From contig JAUWMT010000003.1 in NCBI GenBank assembly GCA_030613025.1, positions 1 through 64,000 on the forward strand: 64,000 nt of DNA, given 5' to 3'. This DNA comes from Candidatus Cloacimonadota bacterium (lineage in GTDB: Bacteria > Cloacimonadota > Cloacimonadia > JGIOTU-2). Below are positions 5,148 through 16,948 of this stretch, piece by piece. Positions within the stretch are counted from its first letter, which is position 1, and the number at the start of each line of letters is the position of its first letter. The notes beneath the pieces are model-generated. The model did not search any database. It worked only from the letters and a program-made list of their open reading frames with translations, and was not told the DNA's origin. The translations under genes were made by a program, and so were the position numbers.

Positions 5148-5534
5148 ATGGTCATTAAAGAACTTATAAAAGCAGCAAAAGAAGCTTCTACCCGCTCTTA
5201 TTCTCCCTATTCCAGATATAAAGTAGGAGCTGCACTGCTTACAAAGAATGGAAAAATTTACACCGGAACCAATATTGAAAATGCATCATTTCCTGCCGGA
5301 ATGTGTGCAGAGAGGGTCGCATTATTTGATGCGATCAAAAATGGAGATACTCAATTTGAAGCGTTGGCAATTTATGCAGAGGGTGAAAACTTTCCCTTCC
5401 CATGCGGGATTTGCAGGCAGGTTATTTCGGAGTTTACTCGCGATCTAAAGATCATCATAGCCAGAAATGAAGATGACTATGTGGTAAAAAATATATCTGA
5501 ACTGTTGCCTGATTCGTTTGAATTCTCAGTGTAA
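5148..5534 (+). CDS. cdd: Cytidine deaminase
   Basis: The 128-residue protein is the short homotetrameric type. It shows SPYSRYKVGAALL at the N-terminus, the substrate loop NIENASFPAGMCAERVA with the first zinc Cys and catalytic Glu (about residues 42-58), and the second zinc pair PCGICRQ (about 86-92). It converts cytidine and deoxycytidine to uridine and deoxyuridine in pyrimidine salvage. It is separated from rlmH by 111 bases and may have its own promoter. It is the last chromosomal gene before the minus-strand cassette array. Bases 5535-5749 show no gene. Confidence 0.95.
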   Translation: MVIKELIKAAKEASTRSYSPYSRYKVGAALLTKNGKIYTGTNIENASFPAGMCAERVALFDAIKNGDTQFEALAIYAEGENFPFPCGICRQVISEFTRDLKIIIARNEDDYVVKNISELLPDSFEFSV

Positions 5535-6110: not shown

Positions 6111-6407
6111 TCAGACCTTACAATATAATTTGCGCAACTCATCCTTTGCATTTTCCAGAATACGCTTCTGGTCCTTGTCCAAATTCTTACCTGCTCGATT
6201 AATATAGAACACCAGCATGGACATGGCAGAACGAAACGGCGGAGCCTTGCGGTGCTTGCTGGTATCTGCCGACTTCTTAAGAGACAGTGCAATCCTTTTT
6301 GGATCTCTCCAGGTAAAGACACCTTCTTCCAGATCCAGTGCATAGCTCTCGTGGGTCACTTTTGCTGACCACTTTCTAGATGCTGTAGTTTTGGATCCTT
6401 TTCCCAT
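6111..6407 (-). CDS. DUF3175 family protein, cassette gene
   Basis: The 98-residue basic protein matches DUF3175 over nearly its whole length: WSAKVT, ALDLEEGVFTWRDPKRIA, then PPFRSAMSMLVFYINRAG and a C-terminal helical KDELRKLYCKV. No catalytic residues are known to me and the function is unknown. There is no signal peptide or membrane segment. The cassette begins with GTTAGGCG at 6489 (minus) and ends in the attC at 5750-5883. The gene has higher GC and different codon use from the AT-rich chromosomal genes, consistent with transfer, since DUF3175 is more usual in Proteobacteria and Actinobacteria (from memory). Confidence 0.8.
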   Translation of the reverse strand: MGKGSKTTASRKWSAKVTHESYALDLEEGVFTWRDPKRIALSLKKSADTSKHRKAPPFRSAMSMLVFYINRAGKNLDKDQKRILENAKDELRKLYCKV

Positions 6408-6482: not shown

Positions 6483-6543
6483 GCCTAACGTGAAGCTCAC
6501 CAGCAGCGGCGGTGCCGCTGTCGGGTGCAGCGTTTTGTTAAAA
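6483..6543 (-). other. attC site between methyltransferase and DUF3175 cassettes
   Basis: This 61-base site is compact and canonical. On the plus strand it runs from GCCTAAC (6483-6489) to GTTAAAA (6537-6543). GCTCACC pairs with GGGTGCAGC, leaving one extra G as the extrahelical base that integron integrases use. The terminal hairpin CAGCGGC-GGT-GCCGCTG is perfect. GTGCTTTTTAAC at this end of the methyltransferase cassette complements GTTAAAAGGCAC at that cassette's start (11 of 12 bases). Confidence 0.85.
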
Positions 6544-6547
6544 AGCA

Positions 6548-7342
6548 CTACACTTTCTCCGCACTGATCATGACCATTCCGTATTGCACGAAATGTTTGT
6601 TTTGATCCATAACGTTGAAAAGAAAGTTCTCAATTCTTTCCATTTCTTCTGAATCAGGGTCATTCCCCAAAAAATGATTATAAAGAGATGCTTCACGAAA
6701 AACGTACTCTGCAAAACGCTGATGGTCGATTTCCTGATTGTTGAAAGGCTCGAACTCGATATCTGTTACCTTGAAACCCACCTCATCCAAGATAGGCGGT
6801 AGTTTGGTGCCGATCCGGATTTCTACCGAATGTTGGTCACAGAATGTTTCAACAATATCTCGGATTAAGATAAACTCAGGTTGTTCTGGTTTACAGATGT
6901 AATGATCCAAATCGAGGTCAAATATCCAGAGTTTGGTGCCGTTTTGTACTGTTTTACAAATTTGTAAAAAGGCTTCACGTGTATTAGGCATGTGCAGGAC
7001 AAAGTAACGCATCAAGATGCCATTGATTGTGCTCAGGGCAATTCGCGTCTCTTGTTCCAAAGCATCGCCAAGACACCAGACGCAGTTGAGCAATTGTCTG
7101 GTTTTGGCCTTTTCGATCATGTGAGGTTTGTTATCGATGCCATGAAACTGGATTTGGGTATGTTTTTCAGCGACTTTTGAAAGAAAAAGGCCGTTACCCG
7201 TTCCAATATCCATGACTTTTTGGCAATCGGAAAGGCCATGTTTGAGCATGAAATTGTGATGACGTTCTAAAGAAAGATCAACCTGGAGTTTAAGTTGATC
7301 TTCGATGGTCTGCTCTAATTCAATCCAAATGTTTTGATTCAT
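6548..7342 (-). CDS. Class I SAM-dependent methyltransferase, cassette gene
   Basis: The 264-residue soluble protein has the Rossmann-fold SAM motif I VMDIGTGNGLFLSKVA (about residues 43-58), an acidic motif II in FHGIDNKPHM (about 66-75), a motif III-like CLGDALEQ (about 90) and a motif IV-like FDLDLDHYICKP (about 144). The substrate is not predictable from these motifs. The gene is the payload of a cassette that starts GTTAAAAGGCAC at 7361 (minus) and ends at the attC 6483-6543. An AAAAGG ribosome-binding site lies inside the cassette's first bases. Directly upstream is attI-like module C, with a promoter and a leader micro-ORF that stops at the cassette junction, so the gene is probably expressed from that module. 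Confidence 0.8.
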   Translation of the reverse strand: MNQNIWIELEQTIEDQLKLQVDLSLERHHNFMLKHGLSDCQKVMDIGTGNGLFLSKVAEKHTQIQFHGIDNKPHMIEKAKTRQLLNCVWCLGDALEQETRIALSTINGILMRYFVLHMPNTREAFLQICKTVQNGTKLWIFDLDLDHYICKPEQPEFILIRDIVETFCDQHSVEIRIGTKLPPILDEVGFKVTDIEFEPFNNQEIDHQRFAEYVFREASLYNHFLGNDPDSEEMERIENFLFNVMDQNKHFVQYGMVMISAEKV

Positions 7343-7356
7343 ACCATTAGTGCCTT

Positions 7357-7413
7357 TTAACTAGGGATTAACACGCCAACAGGCGTGATAATATCCTTAT
7401 ATACAATCTTCAT
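7357..7413 (-). CDS. Leader micro-ORF of attI-like module C (18 codons)
   Basis: An 18-residue ORF starts MKIVYKDIITPVGVLIPS and is preceded by GATATGTGTT. Its stop codon TAA is created by the first bases of the methyltransferase cassette (AG-TTAA across the junction at 7361). It is the counterpart of micro-ORFs in modules A and B. Whether it is translated is not known; the shared start position and the conserved first residues MK argue for it. The role could be like ORF-11 of attI1, which helps translate first cassettes. Confidence 0.45.
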   Translation of the reverse strand: MKIVYKDIITPVGVLIPS

Positions 7414-7560
7414 AACACATATCCATATTTAATATTTATTTCATTATAAAAAACTATCTGTTAAAAAATTAATAAAAAAAATGTTGTCAATTATCTTATC
7501 AAAAATCTTGTTAGAAATTTGCGGGATTTTTTGCGTCAGTGGTTTTTATACCCCCGAAGT
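7360..7560 (-). repeat. attI-like promoter/leader module, copy C
   Basis: This module recurs upstream of three cassettes (A 10476-10610, B 8403-8602, C here). Read on the minus strand it has TTGACA (7485-7490), an AT-rich stretch, an ATG 77 bases from the TTGACA, a hairpin CACGCC-TGTT-GGCGTG (7370-7385) and the cassette junction 52 bases after the ATG. Copies B and C also match further upstream (GTTTGC..GGGATTTTT..GTCAG, then CGAAG). It may be an attI-like insertion site with its own cassette promoter. Bases 7561-7754 beyond it show no gene; an attC of the HNH cassette, if present there, is badly decayed. Confidence 0.6.
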
Positions 7561-7754
7561 GCCAATACGTTTTGATGCTCCAACAATTTTTCATAGTCTC
7601 CAAGAATTGGTCAGGCTAACGGTAAACGCATCATTTACGATGAATGTGGTTTTAATGTCCTTTAAACATTTCAAAAATACAATATAAACTCTTCAAATTA
7701 TCAATAAAAAAACTGTTTCCACCGTCAGGAGCATGCAATGGTTATTCCTATTTT

Positions 7755-8366
7755 TTAATTCCTTCTGCTTAAAATATAATTGATTGCTTTAGTAAAAGCT
7801 TTAATGACTTTACCCATATTTTCCTCGAAGATAATAATTCTGATATCGTCGGATCTGCCTTTTTCGTCAGCTCTTAATTCACTAAAAACAACGTACTTTG
7901 ATTGGTTTTTTGCTTCCCTTACTTCTATACGAAAATGTTGCTTACCTGATAGTACAGATTCAGATAATAATGCTTCTTTCTTTTTATGTTCTATCTGTTT
8001 TTTATGAATCTTATAATGACAGTCCTTGCATAGCACTTGCAGATTATCAAGGTTGTCATCTTTGAAATTTGCGGGATAAGTCCTATGATGAACAACCTGT
8101 GCAGATTTCCCACATATTTCACAAGTGTTATTCGCTGTTTTCAATGCAACATTTTTTAAATCTTCCCATTTTTTTGATTTTCTATATTCTTTATATTTAT
8201 TCTGATAATTACGCCGATTTTTTATATCAGAATCAATCGGAATAAATTTTCTTATACGTGCTTTAACTCTTAGATATAATATTAATGCAGCTATTAGTAG
8301 TAAAGCACCTATTATGATGAAAAGGGCGGGCGTATTCGCTATCAAATAATTTAGAAAGTTTTCCAT
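7755..8366 (-). CDS. Membrane-anchored HNH endonuclease-like protein
   Basis: The 203-residue protein has an N-terminal membrane helix (about residues 12-33), a basic linker and an HNH domain in the middle. The domain shows CEICG (zinc Cys pair), VVHHRTYPANF (catalytic His region), NLDNLQVLCKDCH (Asn plus second Cys pair) and a final IHKK. HNH domains of this kind cut DNA; a membrane-tethered one with a C-terminal extension is typical of small accessory proteins of unknown target. The gene lies directly downstream of attI-like module B (junction at 8403) in the minus-strand array. It is AT-rich like the host. A defence role is possible but not shown. Confidence 0.75.
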   Translation of the reverse strand: MENFLNYLIANTPALFIIIGALLLIAALILYLRVKARIRKFIPIDSDIKNRRNYQNKYKEYRKSKKWEDLKNVALKTANNTCEICGKSAQVVHHRTYPANFKDDNLDNLQVLCKDCHYKIHKKQIEHKKKEALLSESVLSGKQHFRIEVREAKNQSKYVVFSELRADEKGRSDDIRIIIFEENMGKVIKAFTKAINYILSRRN

Positions 8367-8402
8367 AATGTAATAAATATGGTTATTGCTGCACTCTCAT
8401 AA

Positions 8403-8456
8403 CTATTTATTATAATACGCCAGCAGGCTGGATAGCATTCCTAATACATTCTTCAT
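8403..8456 (-). CDS. Leader micro-ORF of attI-like module B (17 codons)
   Basis: The ORF encodes MKNVLGMLSSLLAYYNK and its TAG stop ends exactly at the junction base G8403. Its start lies 77 bases after the TTGACA of module B, the same spacing as in copy C. The DNA sequence of copy B is diverged from A and C, yet an open frame of similar length is retained, which suggests selection or recent common descent. Translation is unproven. Confidence 0.4.
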   Translation of the reverse strand: MKNVLGMLSSLLAYYNK

Positions 8457-8602
8457 TACTCACATCCTAATATATTATGTATTTTACTTTAAAATACAAA
8501 ATTATTAAAATGATATCAAAATTTCCCTGTCAATATTTTCACGAAACATTGCAATGAGTTTGCAGGGATTTTTGTGTCAGCAGGATAAGTACTCCTCGAA
8601 GA
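8403..8602 (-). repeat. attI-like promoter/leader module, copy B
   Basis: On the minus strand this copy has TTGACA (8528-8533), a TTTAAT-like -10 about 18 bases later, the leader ATG (8454-8456), a palindromic CCAGCCTGCTGG (about 8419-8430) and the junction G-TTATGA at 8403. It is the most diverged copy. It lies in a gene-less segment between the attC that ends at 8656 and the HNH cassette, so it could itself be carried as a promoter-only cassette of about 255 bases. Confidence 0.55.
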
Positions 8603-8655
8603 TTCACTCCTTTTTAATATTCCGGCAATTATTCATGTTTTCAGAGTATTTGGTC

Positions 8656-8762
8656 TTTAAACGAACGAGGCGTGAACCTTTTAATAAGTTCAATTATAAG
8701 AAAACTCATAAATCTGACAAAATTGGACAGCTTTAAGCGTCGGCTCCACGCGAATGTTAGGT
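8656..8762 (-). other. attC site after the 8785-9465 cassette
   Basis: On the minus strand the site starts with ACCTAAC (8756-8762), followed by GCGTGGAGCC, which pairs with GGTTCACGC near the other end, leaving an unpaired base. It ends with GTTTAAA (8656-8662). The ACCTAAC exactly complements GTTAGGT (9484-9490) at the start of the same cassette. This proves the cassette limits for the unknown gene between them. Confidence 0.8.
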
Positions 8763-8784
8763 AAAAAATTATTCACTCGTTTTA

Positions 8785-9465
8785 TTATTTATCCAAATCC
8801 GACAGAAATTTTCCCTCAGCTTTGCTGACCAATTTCGTAAGATAGTCTATATATAATTGACATAAGTATTTCGGGGATTTATCTGGTAAAGTTTTACCCA
8901 AATGTATATTTGGTGGATTTTCAAAAAAAACATCTATATCTGCTGCGTTAGAGGGAATATAGACATATTGTTTAATCTCTTTACCATCGGGAGTTTTTAA
9001 AACAAAACCACTTCCTCCCTCCTGATCACCCAAGAATTTTGAAATTGTATTTTGTGGTTGTGGATGAAAAAGAATATGCTCTATATTATTATCATCTATA
9101 TACTTTACATCAATACCTTTTGGATTTAGGGATATTGAAGCATTTGATCTTGCGCTTACTCTAACCCCTTTTATTTTGTCATCTCCTTTCTTAAGCGTAC
9201 TAGTTCTAAGTTGATAAAAATATTTTAAAAGGGGATCATTACTCATTTCAACAACAAATGGTTGATACCACACATCAAAATTATCAATAACACTTCTAAG
9301 ATTTTGAATAATATTTGTTATAGATCTCCCTTCGACTGCAACACGGCTAATAGTATCCCTATTTTGTCCAGGGATAGGATCAGATAATATTTCACCTAAT
9401 CTTTTTAACCCGTTCATTCTTCTATTTAAGCGAGTGAAAATATCTATCTTTTGGGTTTGATTCAT
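8785..9465 (-). CDS. Unknown cassette protein
   Basis: I do not recognise this 226-residue protein. The N-terminal half looks helical and charged, with VAVEGRSITNIIQNLRSV (about residues 43-60) and EMSNDPLLKYFYQLRTS (about 73-89). The C-terminal half has short strands and ends in a helical ADIDVFFENPP...CQLYIDYLTKLV segment. There is no signal peptide, membrane segment or nucleotide-binding motif. It is a single-gene cassette: it starts right after GTTAGGT and ends right before ACCTAAC. The cassette has no attI-like module of its own, so it probably depends on transcription through the cyclase-like gene from module A. Confidence 0.75.
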   Translation of the reverse strand: MNQTQKIDIFTRLNRRMNGLKRLGEILSDPIPGQNRDTISRVAVEGRSITNIIQNLRSVIDNFDVWYQPFVVEMSNDPLLKYFYQLRTSTLKKGDDKIKGVRVSARSNASISLNPKGIDVKYIDDNNIEHILFHPQPQNTISKFLGDQEGGSGFVLKTPDGKEIKQYVYIPSNAADIDVFFENPPNIHLGKTLPDKSPKYLCQLYIDYLTKLVSKAEGKFLSDLDK

Positions 9466-9483
9466 TACTTTAGTTTATTATAT

Positions 9484-9540
9484 ACCTAACGCTTAAATAA
9501 GCGGTGCGGCTTTTTGCGTCCGCTTGATTTTTTGTTGTGC
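9484..9540 (-). other. attC site between cyclase-like and unknown cassettes
   Basis: This short site (57 bases) reads on the minus strand from GCACAAC (9534-9540) to GTTAGGT (9484-9490). AAGCGG (from CAAGCGGACGC) pairs with CCGCTT (from GCACCGCTTA), and AAGCG follows before R'. R' GTTAGGT matches the ACCTAAC at the other end of the downstream cassette. Confidence 0.8.
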
Positions 9541-9546
9541 AGTCCT

Positions 9547-10460
9547 TTATTCATAAGGTTTTATAGGCTTGAGGTTAATTCTGCTCGGTATAGCAGCGAA
9601 CGTTTCGATATCTATGCGATAATTAGTTAATAATTGTGCCTCTTCAGCCGCAGAAACAAGAATTTCGTCTGCATCAGGATTATTTGGAATGGGATGATTT
9701 TCAGCAAATTCCTGGCAAATGAAATTGTGATACCTTGCAGCCCACTCATATTTTGCTCTTACGCCAGAGTTGCCTTTGTATTTTTTCAAACCTTCAATAA
9801 TTGTATTTTTGTGCCCTTCAATGACTTCAAAAAAAATACCTCCATCGGGAAATGCCAAAAATGCTTCATCAAGATAATTCAAAAAAAATGTTCCATCTGA
9901 ATCTGCAAGTGTGTCACGGTACTGAGGTGCCCAATAAGTTTTCCCATAAAATCCTAATTGACGCTGGAGTATTTTAACCGCCGAAGGAGCGAGAGAAATA
10001 CGAGGAGGTCCACCTCCCTTGTCTTGGGCTATTGCTTCAAGAAGTGCATCACCGAAAACAATTTCATTATCCATGTAATGTTTCCCGAACGCTATCCTCT
10101 TATCATGAATCCTTCCAATGCTAGACCAACTTGAAACTCTGCAAAAATACTAAAAATATCCCCCAATTCTGATTCGCCGTAATCTTTTTTATAGTTTGGG
10201 ACTGGATAACCAACCACAATATTGTCGGTAAATATTTTTATTGAGAAAAAATCATCATTTCCACGCCACCCTTTGGCGTGTTTTTTTACGCGTTTATACG
10301 CCTCAGATAATGCTTTTCTTAATTTTGAAAGAAATTGTTCGCCTTGTCCTGATTTGACGGCCTCATTACTAAGATGCGTGTATCCCAAGATATCTGCATA
10401 GCAGACAAATGAAGGGCGCATGTTGGAGGATGTCTTGGAATATTTATATGGTTTTTTCAT
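9547..10460 (-). pseudogene. Nucleotidyl-cyclase-like gene, one-base frameshift
   Basis: Two ORFs join if one base is restored. The first (10092-10460, 122 residues) ends GFMIRG-stop; the second (9547-10074, 175 residues) starts MDNEIVFG. Adding an A in AGAGGATAGCG near 10094 gives GFMIRGIAFGKHYMDNEIVFG, the expected continuity. The joined protein of about 304 residues resembles class III nucleotidyl cyclase domains: FVCYADILGYTHL holds the first metal Asp and KIFTDNIVVGY the second. It has no signal peptide. The size and soluble single-domain form resemble Pycsar cyclases (cCMP/cUMP makers in phage defence), but base specificity cannot be read here. The leader micro-ORF of module A overlaps its start codon (TAATG), so translation may be coupled. 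The frameshift may be real decay or a sequencing error. Confidence 0.7.
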
Positions 10461-10528
10461 TATATTGATGCATAATGAGGGATTAACACGCCAACAGCCG
10501 TGATAATATCCTTATATCCAATCTTCAT
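10460..10528 (-). CDS. Leader micro-ORF of attI-like module A (22 codons)
   Basis: The ORF starts MKIGYKDIITAVGVLIP and runs across the cassette junction. Its TAA stop overlaps the ATG of the cyclase-like gene as TAATG (10458-10462). That is a classic arrangement for translational coupling. The first 15 codons differ from copy C in only two residues. Confidence 0.5.
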   Translation of the reverse strand: MKIGYKDIITAVGVLIPHYASI

Positions 10529-10610
10529 AACACACTTTCATATTTATTATTTATTTTGTTTTGAAATCAAAATGTTAAGAAATTAATCAAAAATAATTGT
10601 CAATAATTTT
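10476..10610 (-). repeat. attI-like promoter/leader module, copy A
   Basis: This copy is the most array-proximal. It has TTGACA at 10598-10603 (minus), the leader ATG 75 bases later, a hairpin-like CACGGC-TGTT-GGCGTG (10481-10496) and a junction at 10476 followed by ATTATGC. That degenerate R' matches the R'' GCACAAC of the same cassette with G/A changes. Upstream of it, where an integrase gene would normally lie, the addAB-like gene begins at 10679, and no integrase is found. Confidence 0.6.
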
Positions 10611-10678
10611 ATAAAAAAGTTGCCAATAATTAGCATAGTCTTTTGCTTCATACTATCAATGTCAACGAGCAAGCAATA

Positions 10679-13600
10679 ATGAAAGAAAAATCTCCTCTAC
10701 AACGCGCACTGGACCTCTCAACCAACCGGATAGTGTCTGCATGTGCAGGCGCAGGAAAAACCTATGCGCTCTCCAAACGCTATTGCAAGATCCTTGATGA
10801 ATTTACCAGACAAAATCTGCAAAAACCAAAATCCGAATGGCTCGGTTATAAAAATATACTTGTTATCACTTTCACAAAAAAAGCTGCCGCAGAGATGTCA
10901 CGCAGAATCTATGAAGATCTACACAAGCTGCTTCAAGGAAATACAATTCAAGAACTCGAGGATCAAGGAATTTCCATAGGAGAGAATATCCGAACTGCTC
11001 CTGAGGAATATAAACGCTGGCTGCGCTCAACTTTCTCTCAAAATTATATCATGACAATCGACAGCTTCTGCGGCACCATACTTCGGGAAAATGCATTTCT
11101 ACTTGGGATCGATCCTCAATTTAAGACTTCGGACGAACTGCTTGCGAGCAAGATGTACCAGGAAACTCTTTCTGAATTTCTCACTGCCAAAAGCAGATCT
11201 TTCAATGAAGAACTGAAGAATATTCTTAATTATACTGACAAAAAGGGGTTAGAGGGATTCTTTTATTACTTTGAGAATAATAAGGTTTTTCTTGAGGAGT
11301 GGATCGATTATATACAAACTCACACCGAAAAAGAGATTTATGATCGGTGGCTCGAAAAGTACCTTCATGAGTTCGATGCGGACTCGATCCTTTCTGAATT
11401 ATCAAAGATCGCAACACTTTCTCAGACCGTGAAGCCGAATGAAGAGAATGCTTTGCAGAAACTTCATGAGCTTATCAACAGCGTTCCACAGGATTCCATT
11501 CTGGAAAAGCGACGTTATATCATGACTGAAATTCTTCCAATATTTATGACCGCAAAAAGAGAATCCTATTATTCTGATAGGGGCTTCCATTACATTCAGA
11601 AAAAATCTACTTTTATAAATGATGCTGCCTATAAAGCGTTTAAGCAGATCACCTCAGAAGTAATCTCTATTTTGGAACAGGAAATCCCTGCAGAAAAAGT
11701 TTTGCTTGCCCCATCTTCAGAAGACATCCAATCCATTGCCGTCTTTAAAGATTTCGTTTCAATCTATACAGAATTCGAAGAGAAACTCTGGAACACTCAG
11801 CTTCAGAAAAATTATCTCACTTTCAATGAAGTGATAATCAAAACCCGCAAATTGTTGAATGAGCATGATGATGTAAGGCGACGGATCGCAGAGCAGTTCA
11901 AGCATATCTTGGTTGATGAATTTCAGGATACAAATAATCTTCGTTGGGATATTATCAAATACATAGCTCAAGCAGAAAAAGGCATCATTCGAGATAAGGG
12001 GCTCTTTATCGTTGGCGACAAAAAGCAATCCATTTACAGATTCCAGCAAGCAGACGTGGAAGTGATGAATAGAGCTCAAGATGAACTTTCAGAATTTTCT
12101 GATGATACGCTTATTGAATTTAATGATAACTACAGAGCATCAAAAGAATATATCCGGCACGTGATCAATCCCATTTTTACAAATGTTTTTTCTTCTCAGG
12201 AACACTCTTTTGAAGCCACTTTTGAAGAGACAACCTATCCAGACCACAATAGCTCGGAAGCTGAAATCTCTGATAAAACACAAATCCTTTGCGACATTCA
12301 TGCCACATCTTATGAGCCCAATGAACCTGAATATGTGCCGGCACTTCATGCTGCATTCATGGCAAAGAAATATCTCCAGTGGGCTGATGGAGTTGGCATT
12401 AAAGAAGGTGCTGTAGTTGGAATCCTACTGAGGAATTTTATTCACATTAGTAAGTATTTAAGGATCTTCCAAAAATATGACCTGCCCTTCCAGATTATTG
12501 GTGAGAGAAATCTGTTTTCTCAACAGGAAGTTTATGATCTTTTCCATTTTATCAGCGTTATGATCAACCCTCATGATGATGTCGCCCTTGTTGGGCTGCT
12601 GAGAAGTCCATTCTTCTGTATGAAAGACACATTTATCTATGAATTTAAGGATCGTAAAAAAGAAAGCTCGATTTTTAACTTCATGGAAGAGGATGAAACT
12701 TTTGCATTTATCCATAATACCATTGTGGAATGGCGACAATCTGCCCAATCTATGCCCTTGGATAATTTATTACAAAATATTCTTTCCAAAGATCACAGAG
12801 AACTTGGATATGTTAGTGAAATTGGAGGTCCGCAGCGGCTGGCAAATATTGATAAGATCATCCACATCCTACATTCACTCGAACTGGACGGCATTCCGCT
12901 TCAAGAAATTCACGAATATCTTTCCTATCAATTAGACCATAAAAGCGACGTTGCACAAGCAGACATGCCATCATCGGCAAAAGTACAGATAATGACGATC
13001 CATAAGGCAAAAGGACTCGAGTTCCCGGCAGTAATTATTCCCGAACTGGATAGCACTTCTACAAAGAAAAATGCAGGTATAATATATCACAGCAGATTGT
13101 TGCCAGGAGAACAAATTGAAGTCGGTATCACAATAAAAGAGAGTTTTGAATCAATAAAGACAAACTTACTTGAGAATATTAAGAGACAGGATAAGATAGA
13201 GCAGGAAGCTGAGGATAAACGTCTTTTTTATGTTGCTGTAACACGAGCGAAGTATCGTGTGGCATTGCTTGCGGATTTCAAGGGTAATCCTAAAAAGAGT
13301 TCATGGTGGTATGAATATGTCGCCAAAACTTTTATACTTCCGAAAACTTCTATTCGAGAAGAATGGGATTCTATACAGCCACCCGAAAAAATTAGCATTT
13401 CCTGTGAAAGTGTCGAAGAAATGCTGAATGCACTGCATAAAGATGAGGATACTCAAAGCAAAAAAATGACATGGAGAGAGCTTCCTGCACGCAAGAAACC
13501 GCAGAAAATGTGGCAGGTTACCCCACATACTATCATGGAGAGTGTATTTCCAGAAATAATATTTGATAAAAAAACACCACAAAATAGTTCTAGTGTACAT

Positions 13601-16600
13601 CAGCTGGTTTCAAATCAAGACTCAAGTGCCGTATCACATAGACAATATCCGGCTAATTGTTGCGTTCCCAAGCAGGGGGTTGGGAACGAGAACACTCTTG
13701 ACTTTATACTAGCATTCGGCTCGATCTTCCATGAGGTCATTGCGAACCATTGGTGGGATTTGACCATTCACAAAGAAGATATTTTAATTTATATGGAGCG
13801 GACTTATCCTGAAATTAATTTTGAAAAGATCGAACCGCAGTTACGAATTCATTTATCCAATTTTCTCTCCAGTGACCTTTATCAATTAATAAACTCTCTC
13901 CCTTCAGACGAGATCTTTCATGAACTGCTTGTTCGGGGATGGCTGGATAATGGAGAACTCTTTCTAGAAGTAAATGGAATCTTAGATTTGCTCTATAAAG
14001 AGGGCGACAAGTGGCATATAGTTGATTTCAAGACTGATAATACCCTGCGTGCTCATCACATATATGAGATCCAGCTTCAGACTTATCAATGGATGGTAAA
14101 ACAACTCTACAACATCGATGCACAAACTTTCATTTACTATTCTTCAATTAATGAACTTCGTGAAGTGAAGTGGGAGGATGAATACTTTATTAAAATATTT
14201 CCGGGGGAACAGCACCCCTTTGCGTTCTCCAAACTTAACGATATATCAATATCAGAAAATATCTTAAGCAAACTGAGTTTTCATGATCGCATACTAATTC
14301 TTAATCCTTCCGGGTATCAATCAAAAAGGTTGATACAGGCACTAGTAAAGAGAAAACTCCTTACTCCAAATATCCAGATCACTACACTTAATAACATAAT
14401 GATGATGCTTCCTGAACAGGAAAAAAGAATATCACCAGAATGCGGCACTTTGCTCGTAAAAAAAGCTGCTGAAGAGGTTTCCCTGAATGAAGGAACGGCA
14501 GAATTACTTTCTGATGCATTTCAAAAATGTGGGCTTTGGGAGCAAAAATTTAGAGCAAGTGATGAATTTAAGAAAATTCACTCAAACTATGAACAGCTCC
14601 GCCAGGAAAAACATTACAAATATGATTTTGAAATCCCAAATAAAGATCTCGAAAATCTCTTTGAAGGAAAAACAGTTATCCTGAACGGATTCTACAAAGA
14701 AAGTCCGCTTGAATATGAAGCAGTGTCACAGATATCAAAACATACTGAGAAATTCTATTTTATTAATAATTTTGATGCTTTTAAAATAAATTCCTCTTTT
14801 GATATCACTCCAAAGATATGGAATACTGTCACACAAAAAGAGATCGAGTCCAAACCCCGCTATACTCAACAATACTCTATCGAAACTGAGATCGACTCGA
14901 TTGCCGGACAGATACACCACTTGATGAAAGATGGTCGAAACATCTCTAAAATAAAAGTGGCTGCATCCAGTATGGATGCATATCTTCCAGTGATACGGAA
15001 AATCTTTCCCTCCTATGGAATCCCCTATCACTCACTTGCGGGTAATAGATTGATCGAAAAACCTCTCACAAATTTTATGATCTCTCTGCTCACAATTATG
15101 CTCTCATCGGAAAGACTTACCTGGAATACAGTATCCTCTCTTGTGCTCCATCCTCTTTTTGATACCGTAAGGGACATTTTCGAACTCGACTCACATTTGA
15201 GAATAAATGGAATTCACTATTTTAGTGATATTACCGAGATCAAAGACATCAAAACATATTCTGAAGCTATTCATCGCATTACAGATTTGTTCAGCAATAT
15301 AAAAGATATAGCAATCAATTTATCAGGCACTTCACTTCTTGAGAGAATTGATAATTTGTTTAATGAAACTGGTATCAGCACAAAGATAGAACAGAATGAA
15401 ATCATGCAGGAATCCTATCGCTATATTCAAAAATGTATAAAAAATACTGTAAACATTTATCGTGATATTGGGCTTCAGTTCAAACCTGATAATCTTTTAA
15501 AAGATATAAAAAAAGCTCTGAAAAACCAGGAGATCCCTTCTCGAAGAGGAGAAAAAGGCATTGAGGTCCTTGGGTTCGTGGATACGCTTGAACTTAATGG
15601 TGTGATCCTTTTCATTGCCGGATTATCAGAAAACTACTTCCCTGTTCCGCAGAAAAATAATCCCTTTGCTTCATCCATTCCGGCATATAACTGGGAAAAA
15701 AGTGTGATGCTTCTCAACCATTGGCAAGAACTGGATTCTGAGCTTTACTACTCCTGCGCAGAGCGGGATATGGACGGAAATGTTCTCAATCCATCAACCC
15801 TGCTGGAAACATTTACACAAACTAATGAAATCAATGATCAAGCCACCGAACCGATCACTGCCCGCCAGCATTATCTTACATATTATGATCATATAATTGA
15901 AAACCCGATCCTGCCCGTTTTGAAGCGTCATAATGAATATCAAACCGACGCAGTTGGTTCTTACAAAGGTTTGGTGAAAACCGATGGAAAATCCACATTC
16001 GCCTTTTCTGCAAGTGATATGAACACGCTCATTCAATGCCCTATGCAGTATCTGTTCAAAGATGTACTTAATTTAAAACGGCTCTTCTATGATGAAGATG
16101 CGGAGCAAAGACTTCAACTTGGAAATGTTATTCATAAGGCGCTTGAATATTTCGGAAAAAATAACGGATTCCCAATATTAATAGAAAGCACTGCAAAAGC
16201 TCTCGATCTGCTTGCAGAATCCCTTTCCTATGCCCTTAATAAATTTCATATTGATACCGATAGAGACCTTTTCTTCAGAAGAGTATATTCACCCTATGCA
16301 GATGGACTAAGCTCTGGTAAAGATGATAATCTGCTGGTACAGCTTCTTACATTTGACAGCGATTATTTAAAAGAATATTCACCAATCAATTTTGAGCAGG
16401 TTTTCGGTATGCTGGAATCCGGAAAAGATGACACATGGACTGTTTACCCTCTCAAGAATGAAGAAGTCACACTGCACTTTCGAGGAAAGATAGATGGCAT
16501 TTTCCAAAAGAACGATCAACCTGAAATACTTGGCATAGATTACAAAACCGGCTTCAACCCCAGTCCTACCGAGATCGAAAATTTCTGGGATATTCAACCG

Positions 16601-16948
16601 TTCTTATACATTCTTGTCATGAAATCACATTTTCCAGAAAGCAAGATCGCATTTCTCTACGAATCATTAAAAGACATTGCAAAATCAAAGGACAAGCAGC
16701 TTACTTTATATGAAGATAATGAGCTATTCATTATCACTCAGAAAAAAACAATGCTCAGTCAATCCAAAGAAGCCACAAAGAATCTCCTTCTTCATTATGG
16801 AACAAAAGCGACGAAAGGTGAGTTTCATATTCGGGAAAGGGAGTATGGCAGCAAACCATGCAGCTATTGCGATTTCAAACGACTCTGCCGAAAAGATTGC
16901 TTCCCTTCTCAAATAAAAGACCTCCTTCAAATCACAGAAAATATCTAA
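10679..16948 (+). CDS. Fused AddA-AddB-type helicase-nuclease
   Basis: The frame opens at TTG 10643, but I prefer ATG 10679 because the conserved part begins there; length is then 2089 residues. The first half is AddA-like UvrD helicase: ACAGAGKT (about 21-28), TFTKKAAAEM, DEFQDTNNLRW, GDKKQSIYRFQQAD, NYRAS, MTIHKAKGLEFP and FYVAVTRAK, then a PD-(D/E)XK nuclease (EVNGILDLLY, HIVDFKTDN, QLQTYQW; about 1095-1140). From about residue 1200 a second, AddB/RexB-like part starts (LILNPSGYQSKRL). It ends in another nuclease (GKIDGIF, GIDYKTG) with iron-sulphur cysteines: one in IQCPMQY (about 1787) and three in CSYCDFKRLC (about 2060). AddA and AddB are normally separate subunits that process double-strand breaks for RecA. 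A single chain would tie both nucleases in a fixed 1:1 ratio. No recC-like or separate addB gene is adjacent. Confidence 0.8.
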   Translation: MKEKSPLQRALDLSTNRIVSACAGAGKTYALSKRYCKILDEFTRQNLQKPKSEWLGYKNILVITFTKKAAAEMSRRIYEDLHKLLQGNTIQELEDQGISIGENIRTAPEEYKRWLRSTFSQNYIMTIDSFCGTILRENAFLLGIDPQFKTSDELLASKMYQETLSEFLTAKSRSFNEELKNILNYTDKKGLEGFFYYFENNKVFLEEWIDYIQTHTEKEIYDRWLEKYLHEFDADSILSELSKIATLSQTVKPNEENALQKLHELINSVPQDSILEKRRYIMTEILPIFMTAKRESYYSDRGFHYIQKKSTFINDAAYKAFKQITSEVISILEQEIPAEKVLLAPSSEDIQSIAVFKDFVSIYTEFEEKLWNTQLQKNYLTFNEVIIKTRKLLNEHDDVRRRIAEQFKHILVDEFQDTNNLRWDIIKYIAQAEKGIIRDKGLFIVGDKKQSIYRFQQADVEVMNRAQDELSEFSDDTLIEFNDNYRASKEYIRHVINPIFTNVFSSQEHSFEATFEETTYPDHNSSEAEISDKTQILCDIHATSYEPNEPEYVPALHAAFMAKKYLQWADGVGIKEGAVVGILLRNFIHISKYLRIFQKYDLPFQIIGERNLFSQQEVYDLFHFISVMINPHDDVALVGLLRSPFFCMKDTFIYEFKDRKKESSIFNFMEEDETFAFIHNTIVEWRQSAQSMPLDNLLQNILSKDHRELGYVSEIGGPQRLANIDKIIHILHSLELDGIPLQEIHEYLSYQLDHKSDVAQADMPSSAKVQIMTIHKAKGLEFPAVIIPELDSTSTKKNAGIIYHSRLLPGEQIEVGITIKESFESIKTNLLENIKRQDKIEQEAEDKRLFYVAVTRAKYRVALLADFKGNPKKSSWWYEYVAKTFILPKTSIREEWDSIQPPEKISISCESVEEMLNALHKDEDTQSKKMTWRELPARKKPQKMWQVTPHTIMESVFPEIIFDKKTPQNSSSVHQLVSNQDSSAVSHRQYPANCCVPKQGVGNENTLDFILAFGSIFHEVIANHWWDLTIHKEDILIYMERTYPEINFEKIEPQLRIHLSNFLSSDLYQLINSLPSDEIFHELLVRGWLDNGELFLEVNGILDLLYKEGDKWHIVDFKTDNTLRAHHIYEIQLQTYQWMVKQLYNIDAQTFIYYSSINELREVKWEDEYFIKIFPGEQHPFAFSKLNDISISENILSKLSFHDRILILNPSGYQSKRLIQALVKRKLLTPNIQITTLNNIMMMLPEQEKRISPECGTLLVKKAAEEVSLNEGTAELLSDAFQKCGLWEQKFRASDEFKKIHSNYEQLRQEKHYKYDFEIPNKDLENLFEGKTVILNGFYKESPLEYEAVSQISKHTEKFYFINNFDAFKINSSFDITPKIWNTVTQKEIESKPRYTQQYSIETEIDSIAGQIHHLMKDGRNISKIKVAASSMDAYLPVIRKIFPSYGIPYHSLAGNRLIEKPLTNFMISLLTIMLSSERLTWNTVSSLVLHPLFDTVRDIFELDSHLRINGIHYFSDITEIKDIKTYSEAIHRITDLFSNIKDIAINLSGTSLLERIDNLFNETGISTKIEQNEIMQESYRYIQKCIKNTVNIYRDIGLQFKPDNLLKDIKKALKNQEIPSRRGEKGIEVLGFVDTLELNGVILFIAGLSENYFPVPQKNNPFASSIPAYNWEKSVMLLNHWQELDSELYYSCAERDMDGNVLNPSTLLETFTQTNEINDQATEPITARQHYLTYYDHIIENPILPVLKRHNEYQTDAVGSYKGLVKTDGKSTFAFSASDMNTLIQCPMQYLFKDVLNLKRLFYDEDAEQRLQLGNVIHKALEYFGKNNGFPILIESTAKALDLLAESLSYALNKFHIDTDRDLFFRRVYSPYADGLSSGKDDNLLVQLLTFDSDYLKEYSPINFEQVFGMLESGKDDTWTVYPLKNEEVTLHFRGKIDGIFQKNDQPEILGIDYKTGFNPSPTEIENFWDIQPFLYILVMKSHFPESKIAFLYESLKDIAKSKDKQLTLYEDNELFIITQKKTMLSQSKEATKNLLLHYGTKATKGEFHIREREYGSKPCSYCDFKRLCRKDCFPSQIKDLLQITENI
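13663..13690. repeat. Palindromic repeat inserted in frame in the addAB-like gene
   Basis: The sequence CGTTCCCAAGCAGGGGG followed by TTGGGAACGAG is a short palindromic repeat. A sister copy with the same arms lies between genes at 32249-32277. Inside the gene it adds about ten residues (CVPKQGVGNE) in the low-complexity linker between helicase and first nuclease without breaking the frame, much as Rickettsia palindromic elements do. Confidence 0.75.

Follow-up and report, generated by a model that had tools for sequence, protein, structure and literature searches.

attI-like modules in rows and at loci without an integrase gene in a family of Cloacimonadota

The module array in the window

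The window, meaning the whole analysed stretch of 64,000 nucleotides, corresponds to contig C89 of a Cloacimonadota MAG (G000; 2.83 Mb in 98 contigs). As shown in Table 1, it contains an array between a divergent helicase/nuclease gene and a cytidine deaminase gene. Read along the minus strand, the array begins with module A, the 122-aa and 175-aa ORFs, a probable attC, the 226-aa ORF, a degenerate attC, module B and the HNH protein, and it continues with module C, the methyltransferase, an attC and the DUF3175 protein, followed by the cytidine deaminase. The modules are about 150 nt in size, and each of the three copies heads different genes. All three lie on the minus strand, on which the original prediction had been silent. 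In the addA product (2101 aa), the first half is of the UvrD type and a PD-(D/E)XK nuclease forms the C-terminal part; the gene is possibly an AddA-AddB-like fusion. An attC-like hairpin (GTATAAC ... GTTAGTT) is located at 152–287, close to the start of the contig and outside the array.

Table 1. Features of the array and its two flanking genes (window positions).
Feature	Position	Strand	Basis and remarks
Cytidine deaminase, core gene bordering the array at its far end	5148–5534	+	Same neighbour in G006:C42
DUF3175 protein, next cassette	6111–6407	−	Pfam PF11373
attC of the methyltransferase cassette	6483–6543	−	R′ GTTAGGC; fold z = −2.2
Methyltransferase, 264 aa, behind module C	6548–7342	−	Pfam PF13847
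Leader ORF of C	7357–7413	−	MKIVYKDIITPVGVLIPS; stop at junction
attI-like module C	7358–7508	−	blastn, profile match E = 1.5e-25, geometry; TTGACA 7490–7485, leader ATG 7413, junction GTTAAAA at 7361
HNH-domain protein, 203 aa, behind module B	7755–8366	−	Pfam PF01844; ortholog behind module in G001
attI-like module B	8400–8548	−	blastn, profile match E = 1.4e-19, geometry; TTGACA 8533–8528, leader ATG 8456, junction GTTATGA at 8403
Leader ORF of B	8403–8456	−	MKNVLGMLSSLLAYYNK; stop at junction
Possible degenerate attC	8657–8770	−	Starts ACCTAAC, R′ GTTTAAA; folding gives no support, z = +0.9
ORF, 226 aa	8785–9465	−	No Pfam match
Probable attC	9484–9545	−	Sequence (..GCACAAC..CCGCTTATTTAAGC GTTAGGT); weak; fold slightly better than shuffles
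ORF 2 after module A, 175 aa	9547–10074	−	No Pfam match
ORF 1 after module A, 122 aa	10092–10460	−	No Pfam match
Leader ORF of A	10460–10528	−	MKIGYKDIITAVGVLIPHYASI; stop overlaps ATG of next ORF (TAATG)
attI-like module A	10473–10621	−	blastn, profile match E = 1.7e-24, geometry; TTGACA 10603–10598, leader ATG 10528, junction 10476
addA, UvrD-type helicase and PD-(D/E)XK nuclease	10643–16948	+	Anchor gene, divergent from A

The original prediction had described three modules with a TTGACA hexamer, a leader ATG and a cassette junction at set distances, and these distances proved exact on measurement. The leader ATG follows TTGACA by 75, 77 and 77 nt in A, B and C, and the junction follows the ATG by 52, 53 and 52 nt. 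In the blastn comparison, A and C are the most alike pair, with 84% identity over 143 nt (E = 1e-37); A and B share 72% over 129 nt (E = 2e-9), and B and C share 74% over 86 nt (E = 2e-9). A chance likeness is ruled out by these E-values and by the presence of homologs in eight genomes, and the module has no match in Rfam. As had also been predicted, the sequence is repeated 5′ of the junction and different 3′ of it, where three different genes follow: the 122-aa ORF after A, the HNH protein after B and the methyltransferase after C.

The attC of the methyltransferase cassette is the only one in the window that folds clearly better than its shuffles. In terms of the CALIN criterion of at least two attC sites without intI, the window contains one good attC (6483–6543), one weak attC (9484–9545) and otherwise degenerate ones. 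Neither intI nor a remnant of it was found in the array, and the locus is not a complete integron because intI does not lie within it. The unit of module B and the HNH gene is 82% identical to one in G001:C27.

Relation to the integron integrase and its attI region

The only intact integron integrase gene in G000 is located on contig C4, not on the window contig, and its product matches TIGR02249 with 434.7 bits against a cut-off of 265 bits. One copy of the module is directly divergent from this gene with the same geometry (79/53 nt). Another copy, on contig C74, is 88% identical to the C4 copy and adjoins a 60-aa N-terminal remnant of intI. Blastn and profile matches, together with the common geometry, show that A, B and C are homologous to the sequence at the attI position beside the intI of the genome, although intI itself adjoins only the C4 (intact) and C74 (remnant) copies and none of the window modules. 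Because copies adjoin both the intact intI and the remnant, the module is, on sequence grounds, a descendant of the attI region of this integron. The claim that the modules are attI-like, for which locating the integrase gene and a flanking module had been proposed as the check, thus holds, and the attI linked to the integrase is a related sequence. A, B and C on the one hand and the C4 and C74 copies on the other form two subtypes, distinguished by the inverted repeat that precedes the core, so that recognition of A, B and C by the C4 IntI is not assured. At the far end of the C4 array (L014, 3855–4069), a 5′ fragment of rsmI is present as a duplicate fused to an attC, and intact rsmI sits just behind intI.

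The point at which conservation stops agrees with an attI identity. In 17 copies of type Ia, the subtype of A and C, column identity is mostly 0.6–0.9 up to G|TTA and 0.35–0.5 after it, and this edge is, judging from its motif, the expected integron crossover. Fourteen copies of a second type, type II, end at GTTAG or near it. Taken together, the copies end at a G|TTRRRY crossover and are followed by unrelated cassettes, and the core is intact in most of them, with GTTAG at the end in most relatives. The cores in the window are ATTATGC in A, GTTATGA in B and GTTAAAA in C, where only that of C is near-canonical and those of A and B are imperfect. Together with the single well-supported attC, these imperfect cores suggest that the window array may be partly decayed.

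The stop codon of the leader ORF is usually located at the core, as the TAG within GTTAG. A conserved function of the leader peptide was considered and rejected because several copies have an interrupted or frame-shifted leader (B, where the frame is shifted relative to A and C, G004:C213 and G001:C7b), which makes a constraint at the DNA level, on attI, more likely. The TTGACA hexamer is invariant in 20 of 20 copies and is the sole conserved promoter-like element; no sigma-70 −10 box was found in the modules at the usual spacing from it, and in a sigma-70 scan the modules did not exceed shuffles.

The layout is like that of attI1 of class 1 integrons, which has a short leader ORF. In our comparison, made with an attI1 sequence confirmed in plasmid records, a GTTATG leader start, an inverted repeat and a GTTAGG crossover occur in the same order, and the C4 copy also lies beside a divergent intI. 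Unlike attI1, the modules are found at many loci without intI, and the likeness is one of layout. A GTTATG..GTTRR leader motif upstream of intI was found at 7 of 74 loci, mostly in other phyla (4 of 264 in the control), which indicates that this form of leader is not universal.

Copies, loci and cassettes across the family

Profile searches were performed over 17 genomes of the family with thresholds of E < 1e-9 for type I, to which the window modules belong, and E < 1e-8 for type II attI, whose definition comes from the sequence next to intI in G008, a genome of another genus. The searches gave 22 type I copies, in 8 of the 17 genomes, and 18 type II copies. An intact intI was found in 4 of the 17 genomes, one in each, and one further genome of the order has no type I copy. 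The three modules in one array that had been predicted are real, but they are only part of the pattern, since G000 alone contains at least seven type I and two type II copies. Two or three copies stand together at ten loci (G000 C89, which is the window, and C81; G001 C27, C7 and C131; G006:C42; G013:C28; G002:C9; G011:C231; G012:C96), which indicates that rows of attI recur, with either type and in genomes that were assembled independently. G001 has eight copies and no intact intI. The contigs of the MAGs often end within these arrays.

At the pcm locus, surE lies directly beside pcm in G003 and G005. In G007, the gap between them contains a complete module, a two-ORF cassette and an attC whose end is joined to the final surE codon. 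The same attI without intI, and the same 5′ side, are common to G000, G001, G002, G004 and G007, and the cassettes have no similarity between species, matches being found only in distal, attC-like or transposon-type stretches. The cassettes at this intI-less site have thus turned over. At the array end in G004:C213 (L057, 3–904), duplicated C-terminal fragments of surE flank a transposase-like gene, which is of the IS200/REP type by sequence.

The addA locus carries type I in G000, G001 and G006, type II in G007, and neither in G003, G004 and G005. In G007:C129 (L182, 335–486), the attI type is thus exchanged at one locus, type II standing behind the same divergent promoter-like region where other species have type I. 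At the C2/C72/C144 locus, an attI copy is present in G000 and G001, and the segment is absent in G004 with breakpoints at G|TT repeats, possibly as a plain deletion between short repeats.

Over 520 nt, the G007 pcm cassette, which stands behind a type I attI, is 97% identical to one in G013, a genome of another genus, where the attI in front is of type II. This similarity begins at the crossover and ends in attC, so that one cassette is shared by two attI types and two genera, and intI is absent near it at both loci. Other genes shared by G013 and the window genome have about 67% DNA identity, and judged against this background, the exchange of this cassette between the genera is recent. The family-wide pattern of putative attI platforms, detached from intI, standing in rows and exchanging cassettes, is a stronger finding than the window array.

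The way in which the copies multiplied can, we infer, be read from what precedes the internal ones. In G001:C27 and G001:C131, they come after an attC plus a spacer of 100–300 nt; the corresponding attC sites of the window, ahead of B and of C, are degenerate. The second copy in G006:C42 is preceded by a decayed 5′ fragment of addA (addA′, residues 6–63), and in G013:C28 a decayed 5′ fragment of a LEA-like anchor gene starts within about 30 nt of an attC end. No addA′ fragment was detectable 5′ of B or C in the window. The attC sites with spacers and the decayed anchor-gene fragments suggest that segments were duplicated, or recombined at attC, and then decayed. The first intI-less platforms may have arisen by loss of intI after insertion or by transfer of the attI segment itself.

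Distributed platforms and alternative readings

We consider it likely that these copies form a distributed integron, in which several attI platforms without intI are filled in trans, with local duplicates such as B and C in addition. The modules would be copies of the attI region (promoter-like part, short leader ORF and crossover core) of a Cloacimonadota chromosomal integron, and the platforms would stand at fixed places, upstream of addA, in the surE–pcm gap, at the C2/C72 locus and elsewhere. Cassettes would enter and leave them at G|TT through the action in trans of an IntI made elsewhere in the cell, each module would promote its own cassettes, as the original prediction had proposed for the three cassette groups of the window array, and local duplication would give rise to rows of units headed by attI, of which A, B and C are an example. 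IntI acts on an attI from a different replicon in standard assays (PMC9668308), which makes loading in trans mechanistically ordinary. A wider form of this reading, in which one IntI serves many promoter-bearing attI platforms throughout the genome, both dispersed and in tandem, with several first-position cassettes expressed per cell and attI-led units multiplying and moving, is offered tentatively and at somewhat short of even chances.

The modules could instead be what is left of separate integrons, or of duplicates of one, that lost intI, where the cassette differences predate the loss and the sites are now inert. The intI remnant beside the C74 module and the eight copies in G001, which lacks intact intI, are in line with such decay, as are the resemblance that the pcm and addA copies show, in their 5′ part, to the intI-proximal region of C4 and the decayed anchor-gene fragments carried by tandem copies (addA′ in G006:C42, LEA-like in G013:C28). 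Nevertheless, five species share the same intI-less arrangement at the pcm locus and have different cassettes there, a cassette has recently passed between genera at intI-less sites (97% against about 67%), and most copies keep intact crossover cores, which makes general decay unlikely.

Local tandem duplication alone, with B and C as passive, delta-attI-like copies of A that have no role, is rather improbable. It leaves the copies at other chromosomal loci and the turnover of cassettes there unexplained, and the internal copies are preceded by attC plus spacer rather than being bare attI, even if the closeness of A and C, the anchor-gene fragment before the second copy in G006:C42 and the conservation of the module B and HNH unit in G001 are what such duplication would give. 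A generic dispersed promoter/leader repeat (a mobile promoter) unrelated to integron recombination is very improbable and largely refuted: there are many copies at many sites with TTGACA in 20 of 20, and the promoter-like upstream part is also present at addA in G005 and at G004:C144, where attI is lacking, but copies flank intact and remnant intI and end exactly at the integron crossover with attC-bearing cassettes next, and two attI types are joined to one common cassette at an identical position. The prediction had named a dispersed repeat without cassette junctions as the finding that would count against it; the copies are dispersed, yet they have such junctions.

The statement in the original prediction that no case of this kind had been described is strictly wrong. 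One attI per integron is the conventional statement (PMC3607928), and internal attI copies are known in class 1 and class 2 integrons as delta-attI-type gene cassettes, a set which includes a full attI1-aacA4-attI1 and a 244-nt attI2, and for which recombination with IntI1 has been shown (PMC12901181). The distributed attI pattern is thus a variant. Like the delta-attI cassettes, it has attI copies inside a cassette array. However, the known ones replace the attC of the upstream cassette and are mostly 14–18 nt, whereas the modules comprise a full promoter-like part, leader and attI, stand behind an attC and a spacer, and occur also at several separate chromosomal loci and across a whole bacterial family. 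CALINs likewise consist of cassettes with attC and no intI nearby, but they are defined by their attC sites, whereas each cluster here is headed by attI. A sedentary chromosomal integron, with one intI-attI platform, is matched by the intact IntI and divergent attI on C4, and differs in that here extra attI platforms stand away from intI. In the open-access literature, no paper was found that deals with chromosomal integrons having several attI platforms or with integrons of Cloacimonadota.

In a textbook integron there is one attI, and the order of the cassettes is the currency of adaptation; with one attI, only the first cassettes are expressed. If the many attI platforms, which have individual leaders and promoter-like sequences, are indeed loaded without an integrase in cis, this lineage would escape the limit of one attI. 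The scope of the term integron would then be wider, attI-headed clusters without intI not being the target of searches based on intI or attC. The natural exchange of a cassette between two attI types and two genera makes loading in trans open to a direct test. In the case of tandem units, excision of a constructed attI1-aadB-attI1 by IntI1 was almost complete (PMC12901181), which indicates that instability is to be expected wherever an active integrase is present. Two type II attI stand in tandem in G000 C81 (L223, 4605–5450), orthologous to the pair in G002:C9. In G007:C26 (L228, 4198–4920), intI is a pseudogene with several stops, and the species still has filled attI platforms.
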